Shown here: positions 11,647 through 61,987 of the stretch, one piece after another
How positions within the stretch are numbered: the stretch's first letter is position 1
Layout of the letters: every line of letters begins with the position of its first letter
DNA from: a virus
DNA: 64,000 bases
Virus record (IMG/VR): IMGVR_UViG_3300020421_001669
Location: 97,407 to 161,406 of that record
Direction: 5' to 3' (one strand)
The notes under the pieces: generated by a model
What the model was told of the DNA's origin: nothing
Seen by the model: only the letters and a program-made list of their open reading frames with translations
Database searches by the model: none
Program-made: the position numbers and the translations under genes

Positions 11647-12230
11647 AAACATTAGTATATGCATTTGGTAGGATGAACCCACCCACGGCGGGACACGGAA
11701 AACTTATCCAGAAAGTAAAACAACTTGCTCAAAGAGAAAGAGCAGACCATCTTATTGTAGTCAGTCACAGTCAAGATAAAATTAAAAACCCACTGACACC
11801 ACAAAGAAAGGTTGCACATCTCAAAAAGATGTTTCCACAAACAAAATTTAAAGCATCTGATAGAGTCAACCCGAATTTTATCAAACAACTTGGATTACTT
11901 ACAGGTAAATATGATAAAGTTATCATGGTTGCTGGTTCAGATAGGGTTCAAGAATTCCAAAGAATATTGGACAGGTACAACGGTAAAGATTTTAAATTTG
12001 ATGAAATAGATGTTATCTCTGCTGGTGCAAGAGACCCAGACGCGGAAGGCGTAACTGGTATAAGTGCTAGTAAAATGAGACTATTTGTCAAGAACAATGA
12101 TTTTAACTCCTTCAAACGAGGACTGCCCGCTGGATATAGTGGGTCTCAAGCTTTGTTTAATGATGTGAAGAAGGGAATGGAGTTGAAAGAAGGAAACTAC
12201 AACACTTTTTCACAGTTTTTAAGAGGATAA
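11643..12230 (+). CDS. nucleotidylyltransferase (HxGH superfamily)
   Basis: A 195-residue protein of the NMN/cytidylyl-type transferase superfamily: GRMNPPTAGHGKLI (about residues 9-22) supplies the [HT]xGH nucleotide-binding motif and ISASKMR (about 152-158) the second conserved ISSTxxR motif. Such enzymes transfer AMP or CMP to a phosphate-containing substrate. The ATGA junction with the ligase-like gene suggests the two proteins work together, perhaps on a nucleic acid end or cofactor. A second member of the superfamily is at 61882. Confidence 0.75.
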   Translation: MKTLVYAFGRMNPPTAGHGKLIQKVKQLAQRERADHLIVVSHSQDKIKNPLTPQRKVAHLKKMFPQTKFKASDRVNPNFIKQLGLLTGKYDKVIMVAGSDRVQEFQRILDRYNGKDFKFDEIDVISAGARDPDAEGVTGISASKMRLFVKNNDFNSFKRGLPAGYSGSQALFNDVKKGMELKEGNYNTFSQFLRG

Positions 12231-12233
12231 CTT

Positions 12234-12938
12234 ATGTCAAAATATTTAAAGGGTTTATTACCCACAACAGGATTGGAGTTCGACCCTAGTTCGGCACCTC
12301 ATGGATACGCAGACGAAACTTCTAGTGGGGATGCTGCTTTACCAGATATTGATTTTCCAAATGGGAAATGGGGAATGTTTGGATTAAAATCAAGTGGGCC
12401 TGGCATCAGTGAACCAACTGATTTACCAGATGAATACTATGAAGAAGTCGCTGAAAGAGAAGAACTTCTCGAACAACTAAAAGAGGATGAGGGAGTAAAA
12501 TATGAAGTCTATCTTGACCATCTTGGGTACGCCACCTGTGGTATCGGTCACCTCATTAAACCAGAAGATGCCGAAGCGAAACTCGACATTGGAGATGAAG
12601 TCTCAGAAGAAAGAGTCATCGAACTCTTCAAACAAGATATCGGAATTGCCTGCCGAGACGCCGTTAATCTATACGGCTGGTCTGGATTTTGTGAATGGCC
12701 CGAGGAAGTCCAAAATATCCTTATTAATATGATTTTTAATTTGGGTATGACTAGACTCAGCAAGTTTAAAAACATGCATAGGGCATTAGAACAACAGAAC
12801 TGGAAACAAGCAGCTATCGAAGGACGCGATAGTAAATGGCACAAACAAGTTACTAACAGGGCAGAAAGATTGATGTCCAAACTAGAAACAATTCCAAACA
12901 TTGTCCGTCAATCGGGCCCGATTGGAATTGTTGGTTAA
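12234..12938 (+). CDS. T4-type lysozyme (GH24 muramidase) with N-terminal extension
   Basis: Peptidoglycan hydrolase. The catalytic region (about residues 75-225) follows phage T4 lysozyme: DEGVKYEVYLDHLGYATCGIGH carries the Glu, Asp and Thr of the GH24 triad, and the C-terminal NMIFNLG, WKQAA, WHKQVTNRAERL segments match. The first 75 or so residues have no counterpart in T4 gpe and are acidic and Gly/Pro-rich, with no signal peptide. AGGATAA lies upstream. It may be the endolysin used with the spanins at 4376, or a virion-bound lysozyme carried by its extension. Confidence 0.88.
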   Translation: MSKYLKGLLPTTGLEFDPSSAPHGYADETSSGDAALPDIDFPNGKWGMFGLKSSGPGISEPTDLPDEYYEEVAEREELLEQLKEDEGVKYEVYLDHLGYATCGIGHLIKPEDAEAKLDIGDEVSEERVIELFKQDIGIACRDAVNLYGWSGFCEWPEEVQNILINMIFNLGMTRLSKFKNMHRALEQQNWKQAAIEGRDSKWHKQVTNRAERLMSKLETIPNIVRQSGPIGIVG

Positions 12939-16888: not shown

Positions 16889-18817
16889 ATGTCCAGCAGA
16901 TTAGACAGAATAATTAGGGAAGTTCTTGAAGGCGGAGAAAGTACCCTATTAGAAGCGGATATGTCAAGAAGACTTGATATGCTCGTAAGACAGGGATTAA
17001 TGCCTGCATCACAATTACCCATTTTAAAACGCGGTTTAGAGAAATTCAATCAAGGTAAAGTGCCTGCGCCGAATGAAAGAAACGCGGTCAACACACTATT
17101 GAACGGTATGATGTTCATCGTACTAGGTGACGATACTGTATTCAATAGAGCAAGAACCTCTGTACAACAGAAGAAATATCAAACAGAAGAAGAGAAAAAA
17201 GATTACGATTCTGATAAAGAACACACTATGGATCCTACTAGTCATGTCAAGAAAGAGGGTGAGAAGTTCTGCGTATATGATATGAAAGGTAAGAAAGTTG
17301 CTAGTTTTGAGACAAAAGACGAAGCAGATGCATATGCTAAAAAGAATCACGATGACCTCATGAACGAAGAACTAGAAGAAAACAGAGCAGCTTTCTCAGG
17401 CGCTGCTGACAGAAATAGACTTCTAAAAAAATTACAAAAAACTGGTAAGGTCGCTGATGAAATTGGTGAACCAAAAAAACGAGCGGCCGCCAAAAAAGAA
17501 CTTCCTAAAATAATGAAACAGTTGGACACAGGAATTAGGGAAGAAGAACAACTAGACGAGTACGGTGCAATGTCAAGTGATAAGGCATCACATAATACTG
17601 GTGGATTCAGAATTTCAAATAAAGACGCAGCTGCTGCTAAAGAAAGAGCAAAGAAAAAGAGTGCAGAGAAACGCGACAAGTTATCAAATATAATCAAAAA
17701 GAACACCATTCAGAAAGGGCCTATGAAAGGTTACATGACGGATGAAGTTAATCAAGGGGAAGAAAAAATGGATATTGATTGGACAAAAAATCCTTTCGCT
17801 CAAGCAAAAGCCATAGAGGAAGGTAAATTTAAGGATATGGCTACTAGGGCATCCGAAGACGAAAGACTCAAGGCAGAGAAAAAAGCTAAAAGACTTTCTG
17901 ATAAGAAGGGTAGAGAAGAAAAAGAAACTGACCCAGGCTTGAAGACTGAAGGTGTTGCTAAGAATACTCTTGATATCTATCAGGCTGCTAAAGACTCGAA
18001 AGATAAAAAATCTCTCAAGTCTATGGAAAAACAGATGGACAAGGCAGTTGATAAAGCAAACGCTAAACTCAAGGAAGAACTAGAAGGACTACCAGAGTTA
18101 GATGCAATGGACTATGAGATGTGGGAAGCATATCAGTCCCCTACAAAGAACAACTACACCGACAAGGAACTTAGACAGGCGAAAGGTATCGCATTTGATA
18201 AGAGATACAAAGGCGGTAACATGACAGGTGCTGCTAAGGCAATGGAGAAAATCAAGAAAGGTTTATCCGACCATCCTGTTGCTTCTAAAGCATTAAGAAA
18301 AGCAAACGAAGAGAACATGAAAGATGAGTGGTTGGACTTGTTTGATGGTGTAGAAGATTTCAATGAAATTATGGAGATGTCTTACAAAGAGAAGTTTACT
18401 TCTATGTTGAAGAAGACAGGTAAATCTCTTGCTGGTATGTCACCAGAAGAGAAGAAGAAATTCTTTAACAAAGTAGATGGCGCCCACGATGCAGTAAACG
18501 AGAACAAAGCATTTAGAGATGCTGCTAGGGATTACTCAAAAGATGATAAAAGAGGTATGGCACCCTTAAAGAAGGATGCACCTAAAGTATCAGACGCGAA
18601 GAACGCCAAAGAAATCGAACATATCGTTCCTCAAATGAGGAAAGCTATTTCAGTAGGTAAGAAAGTACAATTCAAAGATGGTAAACATCACACAGTTTCC
18701 AAGGCACACGCCGCTAAATTCTTGAATAAATACATGAGTGGCAAACCTGCTGATAAAGAAAAAATGCAATCGCATGCCCACGCAAGTCATAAGAACTTTA
18801 TGGATCATGCAAAATAG
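16889..18817 (+). CDS. large highly charged helical protein, probably virion-associated
   Basis: A 642-residue, Lys/Glu/Ala-rich protein. The N-terminal 100 residues (SRLDRIIREVLEGGES, MSRRLDMLVRQGLM, ERNAVNTLLNGMMF) look folded; the rest alternates acidic and basic helical stretches and ends in a His/Lys-rich tail (HTVSKAHAAKFL, SHAHASHKN). Several segments of the form EEL-ENRAAF, EELEGLPELDAMDYE and WLDLFDGVEDF resemble short conserved elements separated by linkers. A late promoter and strong ribosome site precede it. No enzyme motif is seen; an internal virion or core protein is the likeliest role. Confidence 0.62.
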   Translation: MSSRLDRIIREVLEGGESTLLEADMSRRLDMLVRQGLMPASQLPILKRGLEKFNQGKVPAPNERNAVNTLLNGMMFIVLGDDTVFNRARTSVQQKKYQTEEEKKDYDSDKEHTMDPTSHVKKEGEKFCVYDMKGKKVASFETKDEADAYAKKNHDDLMNEELEENRAAFSGAADRNRLLKKLQKTGKVADEIGEPKKRAAAKKELPKIMKQLDTGIREEEQLDEYGAMSSDKASHNTGGFRISNKDAAAAKERAKKKSAEKRDKLSNIIKKNTIQKGPMKGYMTDEVNQGEEKMDIDWTKNPFAQAKAIEEGKFKDMATRASEDERLKAEKKAKRLSDKKGREEKETDPGLKTEGVAKNTLDIYQAAKDSKDKKSLKSMEKQMDKAVDKANAKLKEELEGLPELDAMDYEMWEAYQSPTKNNYTDKELRQAKGIAFDKRYKGGNMTGAAKAMEKIKKGLSDHPVASKALRKANEENMKDEWLDLFDGVEDFNEIMEMSYKEKFTSMLKKTGKSLAGMSPEEKKKFFNKVDGAHDAVNENKAFRDAARDYSKDDKRGMAPLKKDAPKVSDAKNAKEIEHIVPQMRKAISVGKKVQFKDGKHHTVSKAHAAKFLNKYMSGKPADKEKMQSHAHASHKNFMDHAK

Positions 18818-31385: not shown

Positions 31386-31821
31386 ACATGCATTTGGAAT
31401 AATGGGTAGGTGTGGTTCTACTACCATGATAAGACGGTCTAGGAAAACACGCGAACAGAATACTAGAACATATGAATACTTCAATGAGTTGGAGAAAGAG
31501 AAATATGTTTTTTTAAGAAACCCTATCAGCAGATGGTATTCAGCAGAACAATCTGGTATGGGTATTGACCCATATCACGCTTTACCATATATGCATAATA
31601 TTATTTGGGATAAGGTTCATGGTATAGTGCCGTTTGAAGATTTGGAACAATATTTACCAAAGGGCAACTATATCCACAGGGGTAGTGGTAGAGTATACAA
31701 AGGGAATCAACCTTCATCCGTGTTAGACGGTGAGATGATGTTATACCACATGTGGAGAAAGAAGAAACCAGTTCTTACCCCAGAGAAATTTAGGGAGATA
31801 ATTAAAGAATGGGACACTTAA
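31351..31821 (+). CDS. sulfotransferase-like protein
   Basis: A 156-residue protein with the two landmarks of PAPS-dependent sulfotransferases: a 5'-phosphosulfate loop IMGRCGSTTMI (about residues 17-27) and a 3'-phosphate-binding KYVFLRNPISRWYSA (about 51-65). It is short for the family (usually 250 or more), so it may be a minimal or truncated enzyme. A second one is at 63520 and an APS-kinase-like enzyme at 61547. Start ATG 31351; ATG 31363 is an alternative. Confidence 0.6.
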   Translation: MDKIMLVLETSKHAFGIMGRCGSTTMIRRSRKTREQNTRTYEYFNELEKEKYVFLRNPISRWYSAEQSGMGIDPYHALPYMHNIIWDKVHGIVPFEDLEQYLPKGNYIHRGSGRVYKGNQPSSVLDGEMMLYHMWRKKKPVLTPEKFREIIKEWDT

Positions 31822-33149
31822 TAGGATTATTATTTTCAGCACTCGCAGTATCGGCAGTCGCCGCTTACTTCTCGATTGTTGGATTGATGGCAATCTTTAG
31901 TGGACTACCACAGTCCATACTTGCCATGGGTGTAGTGTTGGAGATTGCTAAACTAGTAACTGCCTCTTGGGTGTATCAGTATTGGAAGAAGACCTCGTTG
32001 CTGATGCGAAGTTACATGGTGTCTGCCGTGATTATACTATCAGTTATTACATCTATAGGTATATTTGGATTCCTATCTAAGGCACACCTAGACCAATCCG
32101 CATCCACAGGTGACGCGGTAGCACAGGTAGAGAGAATACAAGACCTTATACAACGAGAGAACCTAAGAATCACCACAGCAGAAGAACAAATAACCAGAGT
32201 AGAATCTGGTGGTAGTTTGGATGTGTCGGAGAGTATCAAACAACAGGAAGAGATACGAGATACAGCATGGGACAGGATACAAGATGATGTGCAATATGCA
32301 GAAAACCAGATTGAAAAGATACGAGAAGGATTAGAATCAGATTTAAATAAGAAACAATCAGAGTTAGATGCCCTTGACGATATAGTAAAGTCATACACAG
32401 ACCAAGGAACTACAGGTGGTGTATTCAGTAGAGAAGATAATGTAGCGAAGGGTATAGAGATAAGAGAGTCACAGAAAACAGAGAGAGACAGGATTGCTCT
32501 GGAGATGGGTGAACTGAGAGGATACGCGGAGACCCAGATTGCTGGATATCGTAACCAAATAGGTGAGTACAGGGCATCTGTACAGGATACCATTGATGGT
32601 GCGAACAGAGAGATAAACAGATTACGAGAACAGGGTGCTGATGACCAAGCATCCAGAGATGAACAAATTGACACTATACAAGAAAGAATTGATAGTGCAT
32701 ATGCAAAGATTGATGAGTACAATGTAGAGTTGTTCGATAAACAATCTATTGTAAGGGACATAGAAAAAGAAGTTGGCCCGATTAAATATGTTGCCCAGTT
32801 GCTCTATGGTAACAGCGGTGCTGGTGCGGTAGATAATGCCGTCACACTTCTTATTTTATTACTAGTGTTTGTATTTGACCCATTGGCTATTGTGTTAGTA
32901 CTTGCCGCCAACCTTAGTTTTAAGGAAAGGCAAGGAGAACTCATAACACCAATGTCAGTTGATGAAACAGTAGTCGAAGAGCAAATTATACCAGAGGAAG
33001 AACCATCTGGAATGCCTACCGATGATTTACCAGAGATGGATGATTGGGTTAAGGATAAGTATGGTACTAGTTCTGGAATGGCCAACCTTTCCAAGACCGA
33101 TAAAAAGAAATTGGAATGGTTGATTGATAAACAAAAAAACACGGAGTAA
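31809..33149 (+). CDS. membrane protein with long periplasmic or cytoplasmic coiled coil
   Basis: A 446-residue protein: three N-terminal membrane segments (about 4-30, 33-58, 68-92), a 230-residue coiled coil (about 100-330), then one or two C-terminal membrane segments (about 345-375) and an acidic tail. I recall such proteins as unknowns in T4-like marine phages. It overlaps the sulfotransferase-like gene by 13 bases and precedes the TonB-receptor gene by one base. A membrane organiser is conceivable; no function is known. Confidence 0.65.
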   Translation: MGHLIGLLFSALAVSAVAAYFSIVGLMAIFSGLPQSILAMGVVLEIAKLVTASWVYQYWKKTSLLMRSYMVSAVIILSVITSIGIFGFLSKAHLDQSASTGDAVAQVERIQDLIQRENLRITTAEEQITRVESGGSLDVSESIKQQEEIRDTAWDRIQDDVQYAENQIEKIREGLESDLNKKQSELDALDDIVKSYTDQGTTGGVFSREDNVAKGIEIRESQKTERDRIALEMGELRGYAETQIAGYRNQIGEYRASVQDTIDGANREINRLREQGADDQASRDEQIDTIQERIDSAYAKIDEYNVELFDKQSIVRDIEKEVGPIKYVAQLLYGNSGAGAVDNAVTLLILLLVFVFDPLAIVLVLAANLSFKERQGELITPMSVDETVVEEQIIPEEEPSGMPTDDLPEMDDWVKDKYGTSSGMANLSKTDKKKLEWLIDKQKNTE

Positions 33150-33150
33150 A

Positions 33151-34746
33151 GTGAAATATATAATTGCGTTAATAGTTTTGACATTCGCTTTCAATGTCAA
33201 TGCTAGTGAAGAAATAGAAGAAAGTATAATAGTCGGTGCCAAAGTATACAATGGATACTCAGACCCAATATATGACAGAAACCTTTTAGAAAGTATTCAA
33301 TACACTAAAAGATATGTCGCTGGTGGTTTGGGTGGATTCAACGGTATACAGTTAAATGGTACAGATACTAAACACACTGCTGTATATAAGAATGGTGTAC
33401 CAGTTAATGACCCTAGTGCTGGGTGGTACGATTTCGGTACAGACCTACCCGCTCATCAAAACATAACTACTATATCTGGGCCAAACAGCGTCAAGTATGG
33501 TAGTGGTTCGATGGCTGGTGTAGTGCTTATAGAAGATAACTTTGAAAGAAATCTAACCATAGAGGGTGGAGAAGACCTTGCAAAGATAGTTGCTAGTTAT
33601 GAGTGGTTCAATGAGAATCAAGAAGTTGGTTTTCAATTAGCACATTATAATGGTAGTAACGGTTCAGTCATGACTGATAATGATGAACAGGATTGGTATG
33701 AAAACACCACGATAAAATTTGGATACGCGAATGAGTATGCCAAGATAAATGTGGAGAATATCAAATACTATTATGATTATGATGCATGTTGGATGATGAT
33801 GCCACCAAATGAGTGGGAAGAGTGGGACTTCTGTAATACAGAGGGTGAGAAAAACACAATATCAGTGAGAAACGAATGGTTTGTTTTAGGTCATACAGAT
33901 AACAAGGCAAAACATAACACTGGATATGAGATGGACTCACAGAGAACCTACCTTGATGCTACTGTATGGAGGGGTGCTGGTCATGAAATAGGTTTCACTG
34001 CTCAAGAAGAGGAATTTGACGATAAAAGTAGGGATTCTTATTCCGCGTATTACCGATGGTCAAATGACTTTGTTGGGATTGGATATAAATTTCTTGAGGG
34101 TACTGCGCCATCATCTGAACAACACATTGTTAGAGTTGGTGTAGAGTGGCAAGAGGCAAGATTCTCAATTGCAAATAGTTACAGACTGCCTAATTTATAT
34201 GAGCAATATGGTGATGGATGGGTAGCACCAAACCCATCATTACAACCAGAAGAGGGTTTAGGCACAGAATTTGGATACAAGGATGTGTCCATTTACTACT
34301 ATGAATTTGAGGAAGGTATAGATTTTGACTACAACAGGTATCAATATGTAAATTCTGGGGAGTATTCTACACATGGAATCCGCTATCAAGACCAATTTTT
34401 GCTTGACAATGGGTCTCTTTTCGTGTATACTGAGTACACAGAAACAGATAAAATTAGAGTACCTAAATATAGGACTAAATTAAGTTACTGGACATCTGGA
34501 CAATTTGGTGGTATTCAATGGGATACCGCTTTGGAATATCTAGGTGAATTTGAAAAAGGTAGAGATTTTGATACAAGACGAATTGATGATGTTAATACTT
34601 TTAATTTTAAGTTCGGGTTGTATTTACAGCGCAATGTTTACATGATGATTTCTATTGATGACATATTGGACAACAATTTCGAGATATTACCAGATTATGC
34701 TGCTGGTGGGAGAACAGTACGACTTAGTATCGACAAAATATTATAA
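33151..34746 (+). CDS. TonB-dependent outer-membrane receptor (BtuB-like)
   Basis: A 531-residue protein with a Sec signal peptide (cleavage after NVNA, about residue 19), a TonB-box-like EESIIVGA, a plug domain with VYKNGVPVNDPSAG and ISGPNSVKYGSGSMAGVVLIED (the BtuB-type GPxSxxYGxxAxGGVI element), and a C-terminal region of repeated aromatic beta-strands. It is shorter than BtuB (614 residues), suggesting a reduced barrel. GTG 33151 with GGAG five bases upstream gives the signal peptide. Such receptors are normally bacterial; in a phage it may replace a host receptor, supply cobalamin or metal uptake, or block superinfection. Confidence 0.82.
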   Translation: MKYIIALIVLTFAFNVNASEEIEESIIVGAKVYNGYSDPIYDRNLLESIQYTKRYVAGGLGGFNGIQLNGTDTKHTAVYKNGVPVNDPSAGWYDFGTDLPAHQNITTISGPNSVKYGSGSMAGVVLIEDNFERNLTIEGGEDLAKIVASYEWFNENQEVGFQLAHYNGSNGSVMTDNDEQDWYENTTIKFGYANEYAKINVENIKYYYDYDACWMMMPPNEWEEWDFCNTEGEKNTISVRNEWFVLGHTDNKAKHNTGYEMDSQRTYLDATVWRGAGHEIGFTAQEEEFDDKSRDSYSAYYRWSNDFVGIGYKFLEGTAPSSEQHIVRVGVEWQEARFSIANSYRLPNLYEQYGDGWVAPNPSLQPEEGLGTEFGYKDVSIYYYEFEEGIDFDYNRYQYVNSGEYSTHGIRYQDQFLLDNGSLFVYTEYTETDKIRVPKYRTKLSYWTSGQFGGIQWDTALEYLGEFEKGRDFDTRRIDDVNTFNFKFGLYLQRNVYMMISIDDILDNNFEILPDYAAGGRTVRLSIDKIL

Positions 34747-34756
34747 GGATAAATTC

Positions 34757-35908
34757 ATGGAAGGGCCAGGCCGCGACCCTAATCGTATAAAAAAGACTAA
34801 ATTTCTGGATTCCATAGTTTACCGAAAACTTGATACAAAAGTAGAGAAGGATAAATCTATGCCCAAACTTTTAACTAATGGATGTTCTATAACTATTGGC
34901 GCAGAACTTGGTGAGAAAAAAGTAATGCACAAAAACGGATTTGAATACCAAGACTGTGACACCACTTATAGACATAACAATAGATGGTCAACTAAACTAG
35001 CCTTGAAGTTGGATATGCAACCGATTAATATAGCAAGAGGTGGCGGTTCTAATTGGAGAATATGGAGAAACACACAAGACTACCTATTAGAAAATCAAGT
35101 TGATTTTGCCGTCATACAAATGACAGAACCAAGTAGATTCCAGATACCTATAAGTTATGATTTTGTATCGAAATGGAAACCTACTAGTACTGTTTCTGAA
35201 TTTAGTGATTGGGCTTCTGGTGGTATATACGGCGCTGAAGATTTTGGTGGTCAGTTTGAGGAATATAGTCACTGGAATTGGGGTGAACAACACCAGTTGC
35301 AAAGTTTTATGAATGACAGGAAGGCAAACCCAGGCCAAATAGCGGATTGGGACAAAGAAACTATGCTAGATGAAAATCATTATGTAGATATGGCAGATGA
35401 GATTACAGGATATTTCCTAATCAATGACCAGATACATTCTTACTTTGATTATCTTAGACATATTCTATATCTACATAATTTATTTGAGACACATGGCGTA
35501 CCACATTTAATTGTAGATATGCTAGAAGGGTTTACCATGTGCCAGTATATACTAGATGAATTGGATCAAGTCGAATCTATGCCACTTGATGCTTCGGTTG
35601 GTAAGTTTTTCAATTACATCATACCACAAGACCCAGACCCAGAATTGAAGAAAGTGTGGTTTGATTATATCAAAAAATCAAAAATACACTCTAAATTTAA
35701 CAACTTATTCAAAGAGGTGGCATCTGCCAAGTGGTTCGATGGTCACCCATATAGGAATTATTTTTCAAAAATAACCAGAGATTGCCCACGCGAGGGCATG
35801 AATGACATGTATGTCGGGGAAATGCCTAATGGCCATCCCGATGAGGTATGTCATACAATATTCGCGGAAAGAATGTTCAGTGAAATTAAAAGGAGAAATT
35901 TATTATGA
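34757..35908 (+). CDS. SGNH hydrolase-like protein
   Basis: A 383-residue protein with SGNH-like blocks: LLTNGCSITIG (about residues 38-48, nucleophile block with Cys-Ser), NIARGGGSNWRI (about 92-103, block II Gly), VIQMTEPSRF (about 118-127) and a C-terminal GHPDEVCH block. The GCS form at block I is shared with 41170. AAGGA precedes ATG 34757. No signal peptide, so it acts in the cytoplasm or on the virion. Possible role: acyl-ester chemistry on glycans. It may be in the same unit as the TonB receptor. Confidence 0.6.
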   Translation: MEGPGRDPNRIKKTKFLDSIVYRKLDTKVEKDKSMPKLLTNGCSITIGAELGEKKVMHKNGFEYQDCDTTYRHNNRWSTKLALKLDMQPINIARGGGSNWRIWRNTQDYLLENQVDFAVIQMTEPSRFQIPISYDFVSKWKPTSTVSEFSDWASGGIYGAEDFGGQFEEYSHWNWGEQHQLQSFMNDRKANPGQIADWDKETMLDENHYVDMADEITGYFLINDQIHSYFDYLRHILYLHNLFETHGVPHLIVDMLEGFTMCQYILDELDQVESMPLDASVGKFFNYIIPQDPDPELKKVWFDYIKKSKIHSKFNNLFKEVASAKWFDGHPYRNYFSKITRDCPREGMNDMYVGEMPNGHPDEVCHTIFAERMFSEIKRRNLL

Positions 35909-48455: not shown

Positions 48456-48484
48456 AAAGGGCGTCTTAGGATGCCCTTTTTTTT
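48456..48484. terminator. bidirectional rho-independent terminator
   Basis: AAAGGGCGTC, loop TTA, GGATGCCCTTT with T tract on the plus strand and the mirror A tract giving a T tail on the minus strand. It separates the convergent HTH gene and the minus-strand operon. Confidence 0.9.
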
Positions 48485-49883
48485 AGCTTATCTTTACAAA
48501 GAAAGAAGATTGGTCAACATCTGAACTTGCGTATCTAAACATCTTTGTTATAAGGTCGTGTTGTTTTGCCTTACTTGTGCCAGTTGATGCAAATGCTTCT
48601 AGGAACATTAGACAGATAGACTTAGACATTCTAAAGTTGTCACCTTGTTCGTGGTTTGCCCACTGTTGTAGAAAGACCTTTTCCGATACTAGGTCTATTG
48701 ATGGTTTACTTTTAGAATTATGTTTCTTATAAAGTTGATATGCCTGTGATGGCCATTTTTTATCAGCCTTAATTGACGCGAGAAATGCTTTCTCAGAACC
48801 CTTTCCATTGTAGATGTCATTATTGAATACTTGTTTACAATAGAAGTCTACATTACCCCCACCTATCTTACCACCAGCGGCTGCACCACCTTTAATCTCA
48901 CCCTGCCATGAAGTGTCACCACCGAATGTTCTGAATTGTATTTCACCACCACTAGTGTCTATGTAGATGTCTTGAGAACTAAAGAAGTCTCCAGTTTTAC
49001 CATATTTAAAACTGTTATATGTAAATGTATCTTTGTTCGCCATTTGTTTTGGTGTATTGAACTCTTTCGCGGTTGCTGGAGTACTCTTACCTATTTTCTT
49101 GAGTGATATACCAAGAAGTTTGCCCGCCTTTGCAAGTTTCATTACTTGGTTATTTAATTCACCCCAACTAGATGTGCTTTCTGATAATGGTTGTTCTAAA
49201 GCACCAAATGTAGTTGCCCATATATCGCCTGGATTCCATTTGTCATGAGAGAATGAACCTGGCGCCTGTGGGTCATCTGAATTTTTATCTATCTTATGGC
49301 ACTCTGCTTTGGCACTATACAAACTATTCATGAATGGTGACCCTCGATGAAAATGCACAGCACCATTCCTAGTCATTGTCCTGCCATATTTTTCCCACAG
49401 TTTATTTGCGGTCTTTATATAAACATCCGTTTCAATCCAATCAGCAGGCCCTTTATTTAAACAGTCTGCGAGTGATTTGTCAGTGTGGGCAAATTTAGAT
49501 GAGGATTTAAGTTGTGTTGGGGATACAGATGAACATGCACCCTTCTTTACATTGAATACATAAGCATTGTAGAAACATTGTAGACATTCTGTCAGTGCGG
49601 TATCAGCTGCACCCCCACCAGAACCACCACCGCCACCGAAATCTTTATCCTTGAATATCTGTGACCGTCTTGCTTCTTTGGTTTGTCTGTTAGATTCGTA
49701 GGTTAGTATTTCAGCTCTTCTATCATAAGATATACCGACTACTTTTGTACCAGACGCAGATGAACCTACAACAAAAGGTTTTCCGTCTTTTATTTTTAGG
49801 TCGAATATGTCTAACCGCGACTCACCAGCGTAATCGCCAGCGGAAGACTTCTTTCGCATATCATCTGCTGTCAGAGTGGGCAT
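48483..49883 (-). CDS. conserved T4-like phage protein, probably virion-associated
   Basis: A 466-residue protein of unknown fold, Gly/Ser/Lys-rich with several Cys (TECLQCFYNAY, GACSS). A Gly-rich linker (FGGGGGSGGGAADT, about residues 82-95) separates an N-terminal domain from a larger C-terminal one containing VHFHRGSPFMNS, DIYIDTSGGEIQFRTFGG and WQGEIKGGAAAGGKIGGG. I recall similar unknowns in marine T4-like phages. It is the last gene of the minus-strand late operon. Confidence 0.62.
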   Translation of the reverse strand: MPTLTADDMRKKSSAGDYAGESRLDIFDLKIKDGKPFVVGSSASGTKVVGISYDRRAEILTYESNRQTKEARRSQIFKDKDFGGGGGSGGGAADTALTECLQCFYNAYVFNVKKGACSSVSPTQLKSSSKFAHTDKSLADCLNKGPADWIETDVYIKTANKLWEKYGRTMTRNGAVHFHRGSPFMNSLYSAKAECHKIDKNSDDPQAPGSFSHDKWNPGDIWATTFGALEQPLSESTSSWGELNNQVMKLAKAGKLLGISLKKIGKSTPATAKEFNTPKQMANKDTFTYNSFKYGKTGDFFSSQDIYIDTSGGEIQFRTFGGDTSWQGEIKGGAAAGGKIGGGNVDFYCKQVFNNDIYNGKGSEKAFLASIKADKKWPSQAYQLYKKHNSKSKPSIDLVSEKVFLQQWANHEQGDNFRMSKSICLMFLEAFASTGTSKAKQHDLITKMFRYASSDVDQSSFFVKIS

Positions 49884-49884
49884 T

Positions 49885-50043
49885 TTATCTCCCCTGTCCC
49901 CTATATTTCTTATAAGATCTTTTCTTGTGCTTGTTCATCGTGGAAGTATTAATCTTCACACTGCGGCCTCGTCCACCGATACCTTGAGATGTTCCTTTTT
50001 TTGTCGGTTCATGTACTGCAACCGCGTTCCATTTTCTAGCCAT
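49885..50043 (-). CDS. 52-residue basic phage protein
   Basis: A small Lys/Arg-rich protein, MARKWNAVAVHEPTKKG to KKRSYKKYRGQGR, with GGAGGAG before the ATG. The form (AVAVHEPTKKGTSQG then TMNKHKKRSYKKYRGQG) is one I recall as conserved in T4-like marine phages. Possibly a DNA- or head-associated protein. Confidence 0.68.
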   Translation of the reverse strand: MARKWNAVAVHEPTKKGTSQGIGGRGRSVKINTSTMNKHKKRSYKKYRGQGR

Positions 50044-50057
50044 TCACTCCTCCATTA

Positions 50058-50477
50058 TTATTGTGTATTAGATAGTGGATTTTCAAGCGCTTCTTCAATC
50101 TGTGTTCGTATAGATTTTCTGATTTCGATAAGTTCCTTACTAGTATCTCTTTCAAGTTCATATAGTCTCTTATCAGACGCTCTTACATCCGAAAACAGAG
50201 ATTGCATATCTCCGTCTATCCTATTTATAGACTCTTTAGACATGTCTGTTACAAGGACTGTTGACCCCATTCTTTCCTCAAGAACTGATAATCTTTCTTC
50301 TATACCCGACAAATCTGGTGCCTCGTAGGTAGAAATTGCCTCTTGCATGTCTTGATATGTCTTGTATACCTCAAATGCACCATATAGCGCACCGATTAGT
50401 GTACCAAGAGCACCCAAGACCATGAAAAGTCTTCCACCTTTGATTTTTATTCCACCAACATCTATTTCTGTACTCAT
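50058..50477 (-). CDS. membrane-anchored coiled-coil protein
   Basis: A 139-residue protein with one N-terminal membrane segment (about 16-35) and a long coiled-coil region (about 38-130). Overlaps the previous operon gene by four bases (ATGA). Similar in composition, with reversed order, to the plus-strand gene at 20879. Confidence 0.64.
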   Translation of the reverse strand: MSTEIDVGGIKIKGGRLFMVLGALGTLIGALYGAFEVYKTYQDMQEAISTYEAPDLSGIEERLSVLEERMGSTVLVTDMSKESINRIDGDMQSLFSDVRASDKRLYELERDTSKELIEIRKSIRTQIEEALENPLSNTQ

Positions 50478-52588
50478 TTGTATTGACTCCTAATCATTTT
50501 TCGGATAGTTCCGTGGTTACTTTTAGACAAATTGTATATTAATCTCGCGTTATCGTCAAGTTTATTTTCATAAACGATGTAATTGACATTGTAAAAGTCT
50601 CCATCTGCTAAATTTGAATCGTAATATGAACCCAAATCGATATTATTTTGGAGTGAAGCGATTGCTGCCGTTTGTCCAGAAGCAACTTTGTTGGAATTTT
50701 CCCTTTTTTGTTGTGCCACTTGTTCTGAAATAACCTCCGCAAGAGATTTTCGTGGCGCCTCTTGCTCTGGTTGTACCGTCACTACCTCTACAGGAATGAT
50801 TGTAACACCCACAACTGGGTTTCCTGTAGACATTAAATTATTTTCTATCTCCATTTGCATTTGTTCTGACTGTGTTTCTACTGACATATCATTTATTTCT
50901 GCATTTTGTTCTAGTGTTTCTACCGTGATTCCACTCATATCAGAGAAAAGTTGGGTGTCTGTACTAAAAAATTGTTGATTCATCATGCTTACATTGTTTT
51001 GTGATGATGAAGAAGCACTTTGTTGTTCAATTTGGGCAGTTTGGTTACTTTCTAAAATCTGGCCAGGGCCTGAATTTTGCCCGCCCGACTGATTTTCACC
51101 ACTTTGTGACTGTTGACCTTGGTCAGAACTACCTTTTGATGACTCTTGACTCATTGAAACCGCACTTTGACTAATTCTCAATGCATTTTTAGTCTGAGCC
51201 ATTGCTATTCGCGTTGCAATTGGTGAAGTTTTGGGTTCAGATGCAGTTTCAGTGGTTTCTTCCTCTAAAATGTCCTCTTCTAACAACAATTCATCGGTTT
51301 CTTCTATGATATTATCTTCTGCAATCTCTTCAAACAAGTCTTCTTCTAAAAGTTCATCGAATAACTCTTCTTCTTCAAACAGTTCTTCAAGGTATTCTTC
51401 AACCTCTTCTACATTTAATTCAATTTCTTCCACGATATCGGCTTGAAGGTCTTCAATGATTGAGACTTCTGGTGACTCAGCAGTGGGTGTGGAGAGAAAG
51501 TCCTCTTCGACAAGTAATAACTCAATATCGGGTGTGGCAAAAATGTCGAACCCTTCGTCCTCCATAAAGTATTCTTCTGGAAGTCCTGTGAAGAATTCGT
51601 CTTCTTCATCAATTCCTCCAAATTCTTCTTCGTCATCGACATATCCATACATTGCTTCTTCGTCTTCATCTGTCATCCACTCCTCTTCATCCATATTTTC
51701 TAGTTGTTCTTCTACAAATGCTTCATAGTAACCATCGCAACTATCACTATACAGTGGGTCTAAGTCACATTGTAAGTCATCAAAGGCATCTTGATATCCA
51801 TCACACTCAGTAGAGTAAAATGAATCATTATCACACTGTTGCGATAGAAAAGCCGCGTCATATCCATCACATTCTTGACTTGATAGTGGGTCATAAGCAC
51901 ATGCGAGTCCTTCACTTGCATATACTTTAGTACCAGCATTTCCTGCCGCTGTACCGTAGATGTAATTAGTTGTGTTTGACTTGGCATAGAATTCGTGTTG
52001 AGTAAATTCGTCTTGTGTTAGGTCACCCATTACACCTATGGTTATACTGTGATTGTCAACTTTTAAATCACCATACTCCATGGCGTAATCACCAGATGGA
52101 AAAATCTCTAAACTGATATTATTTTCATTATTATTTCTATACTCTTCAATTCTATGCCACCAATACTTTGTTGATGTAGAGCTTGTTTGTGAATAGAATC
52201 CACCATCCGAATCTTTTTGTATAAGGTCTGTCCAGAAAGGTGCTATTGAAAAACTAAATTTTTGTTCATTACTAGCAGCTATGTTTGCAATTTCCATTCC
52301 GTCACAACACCAACCCTTATTAGGCCAATTTTGTAAATTATATGTTGCTGGATTTCTAAACATGACAACACCGTTTGCCATCATGTAAGAAGTAGTAAAG
52401 GTCTCTCCATAGAAAGGAAAACTATGTCCTAGTGGTACAACCGCGTAACAGTCATCACATATACTATGAGATGTTGCACCTGTGCCAGGCGCTTGGTATT
52501 GTGCCTCAGCTGGCCCTGCTGCCATGAGAATGAAGTAAAATAAAATTACTCCAATACCCAGATGTCTCCCTTTCACTTTTGACCACAT
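50474..52588 (-). CDS. secreted NIDO-like protein with Cys repeats and acidic region
   Basis: A 704-residue protein: signal peptide (about 1-28), a nidogen-like domain (PLGHSFPFYGETFTTSYMMANG, IAPFWTDLIQKDSDGG, about 50-150), three Cys repeats of about 25 residues (form CDGYxxAFxxxQCDxDxxYSxxCDGY, about 232-300), a Glu/Asp-rich stretch (about 300-455) and a Gln/Ser/Asn-rich region before a charged C-terminus. NIDO domains are extracellular, adhesion-type. Either secreted to the host envelope or part of the virion. I recall related proteins in marine T4-like phages. Confidence 0.68.
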   Translation of the reverse strand: MWSKVKGRHLGIGVILFYFILMAAGPAEAQYQAPGTGATSHSICDDCYAVVPLGHSFPFYGETFTTSYMMANGVVMFRNPATYNLQNWPNKGWCCDGMEIANIAASNEQKFSFSIAPFWTDLIQKDSDGGFYSQTSSTSTKYWWHRIEEYRNNNENNISLEIFPSGDYAMEYGDLKVDNHSITIGVMGDLTQDEFTQHEFYAKSNTTNYIYGTAAGNAGTKVYASEGLACAYDPLSSQECDGYDAAFLSQQCDNDSFYSTECDGYQDAFDDLQCDLDPLYSDSCDGYYEAFVEEQLENMDEEEWMTDEDEEAMYGYVDDEEEFGGIDEEDEFFTGLPEEYFMEDEGFDIFATPDIELLLVEEDFLSTPTAESPEVSIIEDLQADIVEEIELNVEEVEEYLEELFEEEELFDELLEEDLFEEIAEDNIIEETDELLLEEDILEEETTETASEPKTSPIATRIAMAQTKNALRISQSAVSMSQESSKGSSDQGQQSQSGENQSGGQNSGPGQILESNQTAQIEQQSASSSSQNNVSMMNQQFFSTDTQLFSDMSGITVETLEQNAEINDMSVETQSEQMQMEIENNLMSTGNPVVGVTIIPVEVVTVQPEQEAPRKSLAEVISEQVAQQKRENSNKVASGQTAAIASLQNNIDLGSYYDSNLADGDFYNVNYIVYENKLDDNARLIYNLSKSNHGTIRKMIRSQYK

Positions 52589-53722
52589 TTATTTGTCCTT
52601 AAGCAAATCGATTGGTTCGTCACAAATTTCCTCATCTGGATTTACAGAACAGAAATCTTCTTTACGGTGTACTCTGTAATCAACCCATTCGCCTTGTTTG
52701 TTTTTGAAAGTTCCAGAAACACCATCCTGTGCAATGAGGGCTTCTTCTGGTGCCAAGTCTGGTTGTACTTGCCATGCAGTTAAAGCTTCGTCACCAATTT
52801 TACCTCTGAACGGGCAGGGCGTGCCGGCCATTAGCATCGCATTGAACACGCGAGCATCTTGGCACATTAAAGATACAGCAGCTACCTTCATTCCCATGTC
52901 ATATAAACCACGGCTTAATTTTATCCTTTCACAGTTTTCATCCCGAACTGTTTTACCAGCACTAATACCAAACACTTGGGTTTGTACCGCACCACCAACT
53001 CCAGTGGTACACAAATCCTGTGAGTAAGACCCACCTATTGCCGGCGCAATAGCGCTCGGAGGCGGAGACTTGATATCTTGTTCAATCTTTTGGACAGTTT
53101 CATTTCTGTTGATGTTCTCGTTTCTATTGTTTGATGTAACATTAGAATCACTGGTACTGTTAGATTGATTGATGTTAGTGTTTGTATTACTGTTGGTGTT
53201 ATTCGTAGTTGTGTTATTGGTAATGTTGCTGTTGTTATTACTTGTGCTGTTTGATGTCACATTACTAGTATTATTATTAGTATTTGTTTGGTTTACCGTC
53301 TGGTTAACAGTACTATTGTTATTGTTAGTATTGGTATTATTACTGGTGCTATTAATCGTATTATTATTAGTATTGTAATTGGTGTTAGTACTAGTACCAG
53401 TATAATTTGTGGTATTAGTATTGTTATTTGTGTTAGTACTAGTGCCAGTATAATTTGTGGTATTGTTATTATTATTGGTATTAGTATTTGTACCAGTATA
53501 ATTTGTAGTATTGGTATTATTATTGGTATTGGTGTTGGTATTAGTACCAGTATAATTGGTCGTATTGGTGTTAGTATTAGTGTTAGTATTGGTATTATTA
53601 GAGGTGCTGTCTACCGTACTGTCTGTTGTGGTGTTAACAGTACTAGTAGTATCGCTAGCAAAAACTTGGCCAGCTAACAACACTCCGCCGACTAACAAGC
53701 AGACCTGTTTCGTAAATTTCAT
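52589..53722 (-). CDS. secreted Asn/Thr-repeat protein
   Basis: A 377-residue protein: signal peptide (cleaved after QVFA, about residue 22), then about 190 residues almost entirely Asn and Thr with some Ser, including four NYTGT repeats at roughly 18-22 residue spacing, then a folded Cys-containing C-terminal domain (LCTTGVGG, NCERIKLSRGLYDMGMKVAA, CPFRGKIGDEA). ATG 53722 with GGAGAG and the signal peptide decide the start; the longer frame to 53791 is not used. First gene after a minus-strand late promoter. Confidence 0.72.
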   Translation of the reverse strand: MKFTKQVCLLVGGVLLAGQVFASDTTSTVNTTTDSTVDSTSNNTNTNTNTNTNTTNYTGTNTNTNTNNNTNTTNYTGTNTNTNNNNNTTNYTGTSTNTNNNTNTTNYTGTSTNTNYNTNNNTINSTSNNTNTNNNNSTVNQTVNQTNTNNNTSNVTSNSTSNNNSNITNNTTTNNTNSNTNTNINQSNSTSDSNVTSNNRNENINRNETVQKIEQDIKSPPPSAIAPAIGGSYSQDLCTTGVGGAVQTQVFGISAGKTVRDENCERIKLSRGLYDMGMKVAAVSLMCQDARVFNAMLMAGTPCPFRGKIGDEALTAWQVQPDLAPEEALIAQDGVSGTFKNKQGEWVDYRVHRKEDFCSVNPDEEICDEPIDLLKDK

Positions 53723-53774
53723 TTCTCTCCTCGTTGGAATGTTAAACATCCATCCCGAAAAATAGGAAATCTGC

Positions 53775-53803
53775 TTGACTTCCTCTCTCACTTATGTTAT
53801 AGT
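53775..53803 (+). promoter_or_regulatory. sigma70 promoter overlapping an inverted repeat
   Basis: TTGACT (53775-53780), 17-base spacer, TATAGT (53798-53803). The -10 box is the left arm of TTATAGT/ACTATAA (53797-53803 and 53808-53814), a possible operator. It points toward the desaturase gene. Confidence 0.72.
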
Positions 53804-56435: not shown

Positions 56436-57193
56436 AGACACAGGTTGCAATCATTGGACACGGATTTGTCGGAAAAGCAACGGAGAGGTTATTAAAAACT
56501 TCTAAACATGTGGGAAGAATACACATACAAGATATAAAATATAAAAAAAGAATTAGTCCCGATGAGTGGGATTTTATTAGTTATGCTTTTATATGTGTCC
56601 CTACACCACTGGAACTTGATGTAAGAGTTTCGTCTTGGGAATATGAAAAGAATAGATTTGATATGTCTCATATTGAAAAGGCAATCAAAGATATACCAAA
56701 GAAAGTACAGATAGTTATTCGTAGTACTGTTGGGCCAGAAAACCTAGAACCAGAATGGATACACATGCCAGAATTTTTGCGTGAGAAACATTGGGAGAAA
56801 GATATAGATGATAAATCAATACCTATTATGATTGGTTGTCCTTATGATGAAGAACTGTTAGATTGGTTTCCAGAGAGAACAACTCTTTGTTTAGAACCAA
56901 AAGAAGCTGCCATGTATAAACTATCAAGAAATGCCATGTTAGCAGCTAAGGTTACATTAGTTAATTACTTGTACAAAGCTTGTAACGAACACAATGTAGA
57001 CTACGATAATGTTAAAGATATGTTACAACAATATGCAGACTTAGGTAATTCTCATTGGGATGTGCCGGGCCCAGATGGTGAATTTGGTTTTGGTGGAACT
57101 TGTTTTCCAAAAGACACTACTCATTTCGCGTCACTGACTAGGGGAAAAAATATATTTGAAAGTATTTTAAAGATAAATGAACGAACTCGCTAA
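56432..57193 (+). CDS. UDP-glucose/GDP-mannose dehydrogenase-like protein, C-terminally short
   Basis: A 253-residue protein of the nucleotide-sugar 6-dehydrogenase family: NAD-binding IGHGFVGKA (about 8-16), CVPTP (about 56-60), RSTVGP, MPEFLRE, the connecting helix KLSRNAMLAAKVTLVNYL and catalytic GFGGTCFPKD (about 225-234). The family is usually 390-450 residues; the C-terminal nucleotide-sugar-binding domain is missing. It may bind a partner or a smaller substrate, or be inactive. Suggests sugar-acid or glycan chemistry in this island. Confidence 0.8.
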   Translation: MKTQVAIIGHGFVGKATERLLKTSKHVGRIHIQDIKYKKRISPDEWDFISYAFICVPTPLELDVRVSSWEYEKNRFDMSHIEKAIKDIPKKVQIVIRSTVGPENLEPEWIHMPEFLREKHWEKDIDDKSIPIMIGCPYDEELLDWFPERTTLCLEPKEAAMYKLSRNAMLAAKVTLVNYLYKACNEHNVDYDNVKDMLQQYADLGNSHWDVPGPDGEFGFGGTCFPKDTTHFASLTRGKNIFESILKINERTR

Positions 57194-58454
57194 ACACTAT
57201 CAAGATATTACTGACAGAAATAATGCAGTCGGTAAAGGATTTTGTGTACTCAAGTGGTGGCACTTAGAGATGCATTTGGGAACAGGGAACTATCATTCTT
57301 GTTTTCATTGTCCACAACAAAATCTAAAACTTGATGAAGACATGCATAACACCCTTCACAAAATGCAACAAAGAAAAACAATGTTGGAAGGTGGTAGACC
57401 AGATGAGTGTTCCTATTGTTGGAAGGCAGAAGATGCTGGTGCGGTAAGTCCAAGAACAACACTTACTCCAATATATCTTGACATGCAAGATGACATCATA
57501 GAAACCACATCACAATTGTCATGGGATGAATATGTCTACCCAAAATATCTTGAGATGAGTTTTTCAAATACATGTCAAATGAAATGTTCCTACTGCGCTC
57601 CATCTTTGAGTTCTACATTGTTAAAAGAAATAAAAGAAAAAGGAATATATCCATTACAGGATGCAGAGAATCGCGGTCAATATGAATTGAATGGAACAGA
57701 AGAACTTTATAAGGATGATGACAATCCTCTCATAGAAAAATTTTGGGGATGGTTTGATACCGCAGTAAATCATCTTGAGACACTAAGAATAACTGGTGGA
57801 GAACCCCTACTACACAAGAGCACATTTGATATGATGGAGAGATTAAAAAATGAAAATATTAACTTTCATGTAAACAGTAATCTGTCAATATCAAATAGAA
57901 GAGTAACCGATGCATGTAATCTTTTACCACCAAAGTCTAGGATATATGCCAGTATTGATACGCATGGCAAACAAGCGGAGTGGATTAGACACGGATTAAA
58001 CTGGGAACTGTTTGAACAAAATGTTCTCACCGTTCTTAATTATAAAATACCACTTAGTTTTATGACTACATTTTGTTTATTAAGTATACCAAAATTTAAA
58101 GACTTCTTATATTGGATTATACAAGCAAAAGAATTTGGGGATGTTACATTAGATACTCCCTTTATGACAAACCCACCACACTTATCTTGTTTGATTATGG
58201 ATGACAACTTGAGAAATATGTTAGAAGACTCATATCAATTTATGAAAGAAAATAGTGAGTTCAAACAACAAGAAGTAATCAAGTTTGAAAGAGTGCTAAA
58301 ATGGGTTGATGCAAATAGGTTCTCTGGAGAACGCCTAAATAGTCACAGAAAAGATTTTAAAACATTTGTCGATGAACATGATAAAAGAAGAAACACTAAC
58401 TGGCATGAATCGTTTCCAGAGTTGACATATTTTTATGAGTTGTGTGATGGCTGA
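57177..58454 (+). CDS. radical SAM protein 1 (twitch-type)
   Basis: A 425-residue radical SAM enzyme: CxxxCxxC motif in CQMKCSYC (about residues 133-140), the GGE motif in RITGGEPLL (about 208-216), and an N-terminal Cys patch (CFHC about 43, CSYCW about 79) found in phage radical SAM proteins with a small auxiliary cluster domain. These use S-adenosylmethionine and an iron-sulfur cluster to make a radical. Three more copies follow. Substrate unknown; peptide, sugar or nucleotide chemistry are all possible. Confidence 0.88.
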   Translation: MNELAKHYQDITDRNNAVGKGFCVLKWWHLEMHLGTGNYHSCFHCPQQNLKLDEDMHNTLHKMQQRKTMLEGGRPDECSYCWKAEDAGAVSPRTTLTPIYLDMQDDIIETTSQLSWDEYVYPKYLEMSFSNTCQMKCSYCAPSLSSTLLKEIKEKGIYPLQDAENRGQYELNGTEELYKDDDNPLIEKFWGWFDTAVNHLETLRITGGEPLLHKSTFDMMERLKNENINFHVNSNLSISNRRVTDACNLLPPKSRIYASIDTHGKQAEWIRHGLNWELFEQNVLTVLNYKIPLSFMTTFCLLSIPKFKDFLYWIIQAKEFGDVTLDTPFMTNPPHLSCLIMDDNLRNMLEDSYQFMKENSEFKQQEVIKFERVLKWVDANRFSGERLNSHRKDFKTFVDEHDKRRNTNWHESFPELTYFYELCDG

Positions 58455-59835
58455 AAATAAACCCAATGAATACTGGATAGAACAACTAAAACAGAAAAGA
58501 GAAAAGATTAACGATATTAGTCCTTCCTTTTGTTCTGCTAAATGGTTGCAAACTACTCTGTACTTACAGAATGGTTATAATCACTCTTGTCACCATCCAT
58601 CACCACACAAGATACCTGTAAAGGAAGTCTTGGAAAACCCAGCAGCCCTTCACAATAGTAATTATAAGAAGGAACAGAGGGTTAAGATGTTAAATGGTGT
58701 TAGACCAAAAGAGTGTGATTATTGTTGGCGTATAGAAGACCAAGGCAAAGACCACTTCTCTGACCGACATTATAAAACTGCTGATTGGTGGTCATGGGAT
58801 AAGGTTGATGTTATTGCAAGTGATAATCCAACCAGAGATGTATATCCAACATACTTAGAAGTATCGTTTTCAAATGCATGTAATTTCGCGTGTGCATATT
58901 GTTCACCAGAGATTAGTTCCAAGTGGATGAAGGATATAGAAAAGAATGGTGACTACCCTGTTGAGTTTGGTTCTGGTAATCTTGATTATTTGCGTTCTGT
59001 AGATAAGTTTCCATACAAACACTCTGACCCAAATCCATATGTTGATGCATTTTGGAAATGGTTTCCAGAAGCACTACCCCACTTAAAAGTATTCCGAATG
59101 ACAGGTGGTGAACCCACTATGAGTAAGGATGTGTGGAAAACTTTAGATTACATATATGAAAATGCAAACCCAGAATTGTCTATCGCAATCAATAGTAACT
59201 TAGGTACACCACCAGAATTAATACAGCGACTTGTTGACGCGGTAAATAAATTAAAAGATAAAGTCAAACAAATTGAGATATATACTAGCGCAGAAGCAAT
59301 AGGAGAACAAGCAGAATATATTAGAGATGGAATGGATTATGATTATTGGCGTTCTAATGTAGAAAAAGTTTTATCAGAAACAGACGCGAATGTAGCAATT
59401 ATGACTACATTGAATATATTGAGTATGACTACATTTGAAAGTTTCATTGAAGACATAATGCAGTTAAGAATCAAATATAATAAAGATTTAGCAAATAATA
59501 GAATACCGCTAAGTATAAACTATTTAAGATTCCCCCCACATTTACAATGTACTCTATTGGATAGAAATACCAGAATATCCTATGCATCTGATTATGAACT
59601 AATAGCAAAGGTTTGGTTAAAGTATAATTCACCAGACAAGTTTGCAAGAATTTATTTGGAAGAGTATGACCAGATACAAAGGTTTTGTGAATATCTAAGA
59701 CAAGAACACGAAGGTGCTGAAAAATATAGAGCAGACTTTGTAAATTATATAAAAGCCTACGATATCAGAAGAGAGAAAAACTTTAGCAAAACTTTTCCAG
59801 AATATAAACATTTATTGGAGTGGTGGGATGCCTAA
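58447..59835 (+). CDS. radical SAM protein 2 (twitch-type)
   Basis: A 462-residue paralogue of 57177: N-terminal CHHP (about 48) and CDYCW (about 91), core motif CNFACAYC (about 144-151), and RMTGGEPTM (about 217-225). ATG 58447 is preferred to 58435, which lacks a ribosome site. It overlaps the preceding gene by eight bases. Distinct from copy 1 in sequence, so the copies probably act on different positions or substrates. Confidence 0.87.
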   Translation: MAENKPNEYWIEQLKQKREKINDISPSFCSAKWLQTTLYLQNGYNHSCHHPSPHKIPVKEVLENPAALHNSNYKKEQRVKMLNGVRPKECDYCWRIEDQGKDHFSDRHYKTADWWSWDKVDVIASDNPTRDVYPTYLEVSFSNACNFACAYCSPEISSKWMKDIEKNGDYPVEFGSGNLDYLRSVDKFPYKHSDPNPYVDAFWKWFPEALPHLKVFRMTGGEPTMSKDVWKTLDYIYENANPELSIAINSNLGTPPELIQRLVDAVNKLKDKVKQIEIYTSAEAIGEQAEYIRDGMDYDYWRSNVEKVLSETDANVAIMTTLNILSMTTFESFIEDIMQLRIKYNKDLANNRIPLSINYLRFPPHLQCTLLDRNTRISYASDYELIAKVWLKYNSPDKFARIYLEEYDQIQRFCEYLRQEHEGAEKYRADFVNYIKAYDIRREKNFSKTFPEYKHLLEWWDA

Positions 59836-60055
59836 AAAATACATTCATGTAAACATGCATAAGATTCGTGCTAATAAAAAACATGGAACAAACGAACCTG
59901 TTCTTACAGTAAAAGAGGGAAGAAAAAATACTTATGGTCACAGTGTAAAAATACATGGCCCCAGTGAAGTAATATATGGTGGAAATGATAAACCATTGTT
60001 ACCATGTGGGGCGAGAGTTGTTATAATGACAGAAGCGGAGATTGAAATTGAATAA
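59828..60055 (+). CDS. small protein between radical SAM genes
   Basis: A 75-residue protein (MPKKYIHVNMHKIRANKKHG; VKIHGPSEVIYGGNDKPLLPCGARVVIMTE) that I recall from marine phage genomes next to metabolic genes, always unknown. It overlaps radical SAM gene 2 by eight bases and ends inside the start of radical SAM gene 3. It might be a substrate, a chaperone or an unrelated conserved small protein. No leader/core structure of a ribosomal peptide precursor is clear. Confidence 0.65.
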   Translation: MPKKYIHVNMHKIRANKKHGTNEPVLTVKEGRKNTYGHSVKIHGPSEVIYGGNDKPLLPCGARVVIMTEAEIEIE

Positions 60056-61550: not shown

Positions 61551-61987
61551 GAATACTAATATGTGGATTGCCGGGCTCTGGAAAAACTACTCTTGCGAGA
61601 GAGTTGTCATATCATTTTTGTCTGCCACATTTTAACGCAGACACAATACGAGAACATTTTAATGATTGGGATTTCTCTCCAGAAGGAAGAGAAAGACAAG
61701 CTTGGCGTTTTGCTAACGATTATCCCTTTGGGATATTTGACTTTGTTGCACCACTTGAACACTATCGAAAGTTGGTTGCAGCTGATTGTACTATCTTTAT
61801 GAACACGATAGGTGAAGGTAGATACAAAGATACAAATAAAATATTTGAACCACCACTATCGTGTGATTATGAGGTAAAAAAATGGATAGAACTAAACCAA
61901 CTACGCAGCTCCTTGGAAGGTTTCAACCGTGGCATAGAGGGCATACAGAACTATTTAAAAGAGCAATTTCCAAAACTGGTCAAGTAA
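61547..61987 (+). CDS. APS-kinase-like P-loop kinase
   Basis: A 146-residue P-loop protein: CGLPGSGKTTLAREL (about residues 6-20) and FNADTIREHFNDW (about 29-41), the DxxR pattern of adenylylsulfate kinases, which make the sulfate donor PAPS. It is shorter than CysC. Sulfotransferase-like proteins at 31351 and 63520 would use PAPS. Its last 106 bases overlap the next gene in another frame. Other phosphoryl acceptors are possible. Confidence 0.7.
   Translation: MRILICGLPGSGKTTLARELSYHFCLPHFNADTIREHFNDWDFSPEGRERQAWRFANDYPFGIFDFVAPLEHYRKLVAADCTIFMNTIGEGRYKDTNKIFEPPLSCDYEVKKWIELNQLRSSLEGFNRGIEGIQNYLKEQFPKLVK

Follow-up and report, generated by a model that had tools for sequence, protein, structure and literature searches.

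A BtuB-like TonB-dependent receptor encoded by uncultured T4-like marine phages

We describe a phage gene whose product is, almost certainly, a functional-looking TonB-dependent receptor (TBDR) of a BtuB-like kind. Judging from sequence comparisons, purifying selection maintains the gene across many marine T4-like phages, and the results suggest that many uncultured phages of this type may make infected cells import vitamin B12 or a similar compound. As the best explanation of its function we propose, with a probability of about 0.5, that the receptor would allow infected cells to take up cobalamin, or a ligand resembling it, via the TonB of the host, the ligand being the part of this reading that we infer. 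The gene lies in a stretch of 64,000 bases (hereafter the window), which comprises positions 97407–161406 of a 161,406-base IMG/VR virus record and in which the relevant features are arranged as follows:

31809–33149, + strand: upstream neighbor, encoding a 446-aa coiled-coil membrane-like protein (context)
33143–33146, + strand: GGAG, likely ribosome-binding site, overlapping the 3' end of the upstream gene (read from the sequence)
33151–34746, + strand: BtuB-like TBDR gene, 531 aa (ORF, Pfam, NCBIfam, model, fold and PDB sequence)
33151–33207, + strand: signal-peptide-like residues 1–19 (by eye)
33211–33240, + strand: TonB box EIEESIIVGA, residues 21–30 (E23 in 50/50 members; pattern in 52/52)
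33250–33549, + strand: plug domain, residues 34–133 (Pfam Plug and model)
33550–34743, + strand: predicted 22-strand barrel, residues 134–531 (model)
33658–33693, + strand: loop L2, residues 170–181, with invariant S172, N177, E179 and D181 (model and 50-row alignment)
33766–33846, + strand: loop L3 and its edges, residues 206–232, with invariant Y206, Y210, D211, C213, C228 and G232
34757–35908, + strand: downstream neighbor, about 383 aa (context; start position chosen by hand)

The receptor ORF is intact and runs from a GTG at 33151 to a stop codon ending at 34746. We prefer this GTG over an alternative, longer TTG start at 33124, because GGAG is located just 5' of it and because the same GTG is found again in relatives. 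A single base separates the gene from its upstream neighbor, the TAA stop codon of which occupies positions 33147–33149; this spacing, together with the GGAG preceding the GTG, suggests that both genes are probably translated together. A search of the window revealed no T4-like late promoter TATAAATA close 5' of the receptor gene, the motif occurring nine times in the window versus 5.3 times expected. GC content and skew of the gene resemble those of its neighbors.

In a Pfam search, the 531-aa receptor gave Plug as its sole match (E = 8.8e-8, above the cut-off), and Plug matched all 50 aligned members of the family at E ≤ 0.001. None of these members matched a Pfam barrel family at the same threshold; the barrel is a prediction. 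An AlphaFold2 model computed from 50 sequences (pLDDT 86.5, pTM 0.86), which supersedes an earlier model from 14 sequences (pLDDT 55.3), consists of a plug and a barrel, with 22 predicted strands between residues 134 and 530 as counted by hand, excluding the hairpins 213–225 and 509–519. Within the TonB box, E23 is found in 50/50 members and V at position 27 in 48/50, and the TonB-box pattern is present in all 52 distinct complete members. Thus, the TonB-box-like segment and the plug, which an initial annotation had read from the sequence, are borne out across the family; the signal-like N-terminus that it reported is likewise visible by eye, and the structure prediction it had called for returned the beta-rich barrel as a model.

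The same annotation had placed the receptor in a phage setting, which agrees with the virus record, with the matching GC content and skew and with the T4-type RNase H and class I ribonucleotide reductase encoded near the receptor gene. The terminase region of the window's phage is nearest to those of cyanophages, pelagiphages and methylophages. Over successive IMG/VR scans, the number of distinct loci bearing receptor relatives rose from 17 to 36 and finally to 78 (in the last scan 83 loci were confirmed and 80 kept, representing 78 distinct contigs), and further searches added 11 records (3/21 and 8/23). Outside the window's clade, these loci share few or no other window proteins with the window. 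In the window's lineage (A), the receptor gene is positioned between the genes for the 446-aa coiled-coil protein and the ~383-aa protein; in lineage B, it has a peptidase-CobS pair on one side and, on the other, either a ClpP-like protease gene or a small gene; in lineage C (L058), it adjoins the gene for a single-strand binding protein; in lineage D (L067), it is flanked by one gene for an AAA protein and one for a DNA helicase; and in one further locus (L080), it resides in the baseplate region. As regards the flanks in the window's clade, the upstream 446-aa protein is mostly 88–97% identical among members, while the product of the downstream gene (34757–35908), which weakly matches DUF6071, is about 52–83% identical, excluding the near-identical contig L012, and is more variable in the clade than the receptor.

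The distribution of the gene at the window's site was followed in 80 loci fetched via their RNase H. Sixteen of them encode an RNase H at least 85% identical to that of the window; 11 of the 16 reach the site and all 11 bear the receptor gene there, while the other five end earlier. Among the 64 more distant loci, the upstream gene and RNase H are both retained in 53 (a hand count), with no receptor gene between them in any of the 53. Moreover, the receptor is absent altogether from one 162-kb relative found via CobS. Presence in close and absence in distant RNase H loci indicate that the receptor gene is accessory and was acquired at this site within the window's clade. In three of the 64 loci (L106–L108), a different family member is encoded at 11736–12932, downstream of the RNase H gene by about 5 kb.

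One could suppose, then, that a bacterial gene has been joined to phage DNA by an assembly error or was captured recently and neutrally, given that the nearest E. coli relatives of the receptor are cellular transporters and that distant phages keep the flanking genes with no receptor at the window's site. We consider this highly improbable. The same junctions recur in 11/11 close relatives that reach the site, which rules out an assembly join, and the family extends over 78 contigs, none of its 83 locus rows being interrupted by an internal stop. Absence from related phages together with an assembly join, the combination named beforehand as speaking against a phage-borne receptor, is thus not what these relatives present. 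In addition, pairwise comparison of relatives with the window copy gave pN/pS values of 0.20–0.33, and two pattern-limited scans of the genomes of 84,980 species revealed no bacterial relative.

As to kind, the label "BtuB-type" is correct: in comparisons that covered eight E. coli TBDRs, PDB entries and NCBIfam models, BtuB came out closest among the E. coli receptors, among PDB sequences and by fold. Profile A3 of the phage family scored BtuB with 87.2 bits, CirA with 15.8 bits and the six other E. coli TBDRs with at most 12.5 bits; hhalign gave E-values of 2.3e-20 for BtuB versus 6.6e-6 for CirA, and BtuB was the best blastp partner among the eight for 48/50 members. Among PDB sequences, BtuB (87.7 bits) was followed by BtuB1 (23.1 bits) and Cir (15.7 bits). 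In a fold comparison, the top 15 of 50 listed rows were cobalamin receptors, with Z-scores of 37.1–33.5 for E. coli BtuB and 33.1–32.7 for Bacteroides B12 receptors, the heme receptor ChuA coming next (31.8); its small size may favor E. coli BtuB in this ranking, but the larger Bacteroides receptors lead as well.

Equivalence to BtuB does not follow from this nearness. The scores reached with BtuB equivalog models are far below the cut-offs (45.7 of 836 for NF007926, 44.3 of 599.7 for TIGR01779), indicating a separate phage clade. In a tree with the eight E. coli TBDRs, which took up the phylogeny check proposed at the outset, all 50 phage rows group in a single clade (support 100/100) on a stem of 2.56 changes per column; this clade joins BtuB with support of 99/93, in a part of the tree that carries a long-branch warning. 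Like BtuB and the Bacteroides receptors BtuB1–3, the phage receptor combines a TonB box, a plug and a predicted 22-strand barrel. It is shorter than E. coli BtuB (531 versus 614 aa) and has two invariant loop cysteines, whereas mature E. coli BtuB has none; unlike BtuB, it is encoded by a phage and without a detected cobalamin riboswitch, as Rfam at gathering thresholds matched nothing but tRNAs, both in the window and in the 16 loci of relatives that were scanned. The two cysteines, C213 and C228 (window 33787–33834), flank a loop hairpin in the model and likely form a disulfide.

The putative ligand site lies in loops L2 and L3. S172, N177, E179, D181, Y206, Y210, D211, C213, C228 and G232 are invariant in 50/50 members, and D176 is retained in 37/50. 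Both hhalign and HMMER align phage D176-N177 with D193-N194 of BtuB and phage Y210-D211 with Y229-D230 of BtuB; adding the E. coli TBDRs to A3 with MAFFT --add placed the BtuB loops otherwise and was not relied on. We take D193, D195, Y229 and D230 to be the calcium ligands of BtuB; the BtuB sequence has these residues at these positions, and solved BtuB entries list bound calcium and cyanocobalamin. D199 was dismissed as a further calcium ligand, as the residue at this position is S199.

These alignments bear on the question of whether the receptor may instead import a different ligand such as heme, siderophores or other metal chelates, its likeness to BtuB reflecting ancestry and fold. The distance from BtuB would allow for such a ligand, with an identity of 17% in the fold alignment and the long stem of the phage clade, and heme/hemoglobin-type NCBIfam models come second (18/50 and 6/50 members, best E = 2.5e-10) and are the best models for some members of lineage D, which partly leans to the heme type (in L074, 39.4 bits versus 26.5 bits for the TonB-B12 model). 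However, the B12 model matches more members and does so more strongly (39/50, best E = 7.4e-19), the leading fold matches are all cobalamin receptors, and loop residues align with what we take to be the calcium site of BtuB. Import of another ligand thus appears possible but rather doubtful. Of the suggested help with cobalamin or iron uptake during infection, we retain cobalamin, a putative ligand, as the best reading and regard iron as less likely by sequence.

Regional conservation was assessed on pooled pairs of ten members of the window's clade. The plug is the most conserved region of the receptor (mean identity 0.87), extracellular loops are about as conserved as strands (0.77 versus 0.75), and the signal peptide is unconstrained (pN/pS 1.00). 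The invariant TonB-box and loop residues and the conservation of the loops at the level of the strands fit the expectation for energized ligand import.

The same data do not support the idea, raised in the initial annotation, that the phage copy masks or replaces the host's receptor. More broadly, by tying up the TonB of the host or by taking the place of the host's receptor, the phage receptor might shield the infected cell from other phages or from bacteriocins. TBDRs do serve as phage receptors, and some phages inactivate a TBDR, as described for Cor acting against FhuA (PMC11436027). The conserved TonB box would also suit competition for TonB, and such competition may provide a weaker model of exclusion. 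On the other hand, loop residues distant from the TonB box are invariant in all 50 members, and the loops are not hypervariable. Cor-type superinfection-exclusion proteins are small. To our knowledge, exclusion proteins directed at TBDRs function as small blockers and none is a receptor, whereas the phage product is a 531-aa plugged barrel rather than a small protein inactivating a host receptor. We therefore regard protection as quite unlikely.

Among 80 CobS loci, 46 include 400 bases or more of sequence 5' of the peptidase gene, and in 32 of these 46 the receptor gene is found there, directly 5' of the peptidase-CobS pair. In the tree, the window's lineage and lineage C are nested among receptors encoded at or near the CobS locus, so that the CobS-side place looks ancestral for that part of the clade. 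A strong CobS-like match (E below 1e-100) is present in 24/48 receptor-bearing records, none of them belonging to lineage C or D. The phage of the window encodes its CobS about 43 kb from the receptor gene, and the CobS-like copy in L033 scores 79.5 of 558.55, far under the CobS equivalog cut-off. CobS has been described as a core gene of T4-like cyanophages (PMC3037559); adjacency to CobS is therefore weak evidence for a B12 function, as the gene belongs to the cyanophage core anyway. As there described, the CobS-like auxiliary gene likewise bears a cobalamin-related label in marine T4-like phages. The cyanophage CobS-like protein is an intracellular ATPase, whereas the phage product described here is a receptor.

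In three loci, a radical-SAM gene follows the receptor gene after 15 nt (L027, 5377–6840; L050, 9557–11005; L052, 9494–10942) and shows weak B12-binding matches, one of the three passing the Pfam cut-off, with neighbors in frame. We rejected an association of the receptor with B12-binding radical-SAM genes at the genome level, given that such matches are no rarer in control records without the receptor (10/27) than in records with it (15/46 and 2/5), the records compared being fragments of unequal length. A class II ribonucleotide reductase was discarded as a B12 consumer as well: class I models identified NrdB in 11/11 larger records, and a class I enzyme would not need B12. The larger records encode neither TonB nor an inner-membrane FecCD transporter (0/11 for each) and thus would rely on those of the host. 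Taken together, the B12 context is suggestive near the receptor gene and neutral across genomes. That the receptor, a CobS-like ATPase and its partner at the inferred ancestral place, in some lineages with a radical-SAM enzyme of B12-binding-like domain encoded 15 nt away, form a phage module for B12 acquisition, through which the virus would remodel the vitamin uptake of the infected cell, is a tentative possibility.

No cultured-phage relative was detected by tblastn in 50,697 phage records with three family members as queries. Together with the outcome of the pattern-limited genome scans, this points to a phage-specific clade of BtuB-like receptors. Plasmid records gave 14 weak matches, annotated BtuB genes among them. 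An N-terminal BtuB search returned 46 records; the 30 listed mostly look like bacterial contigs or unannotated records, with Acinetobacter phage Ab105-3phi as a prophage-like exception. In a viral structure library, one convincing TBDR was found, the 805-aa SusC protein A0A8D9FQQ5 of an uncultured marine phage, which is 12% identical to the receptor in the Foldseek alignment. A SusC-like TBDR has been reported for the marine megaphage Mar_Mega_1 (PMC9723777); we would guess that A0A8D9FQQ5 is this protein. Mar_Mega_1 thus likewise has a TBDR in a marine phage genome, but of the SusC type. A "TonB-dependent receptor" is also annotated among tail and capsid genes of the pelagiphage Polarivirus skadi, and its authors (PMC10504331) read the annotation as a pointer to the entry receptor; this is again a TBDR annotation in a marine phage, and tblastn with the receptor described here matched no phage record. 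A BtuB-like phage family was not found in the literature covered, outside of which subscription papers mostly and preprints wholly fell.

For uptake of cobalamin or a similar ligand, we envisage the following sequence of events. During infection, the receptor would be exported and inserted in the outer membrane, where it would bind cobalamin or a related corrinoid or tetrapyrrole via loops L2 and L3. TonB-ExbBD and an inner-membrane transporter of the host would drive import of the ligand, and B12-dependent reactions of the infected cell could thereby be kept running. Life in some regions of the ocean is limited by vitamin B12, and genes of phages are known to change how infected cells photosynthesize and use phosphate. 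If the proposal is true, infected cells would take up scarce cofactors for the benefit of the virus, and the receptor would be one of the rare energized transporters that a phage places in the outer membrane.

Elsewhere in the window, two long ORFs lack a PHROG match, one of 642 aa (16889–18817) where the AT skew is strong (about 0.3), the other of 704 aa (50474–52588) in a block of minus-strand genes with opposite GC skew (48483–53791). Four radical-SAM genes are clustered at 57177–63523 (57177–58454, 58435–59835, 60042–61550 and 62222–63523), and two short ORFs at 61547–62232 match one PHROG kinase family in two parts.
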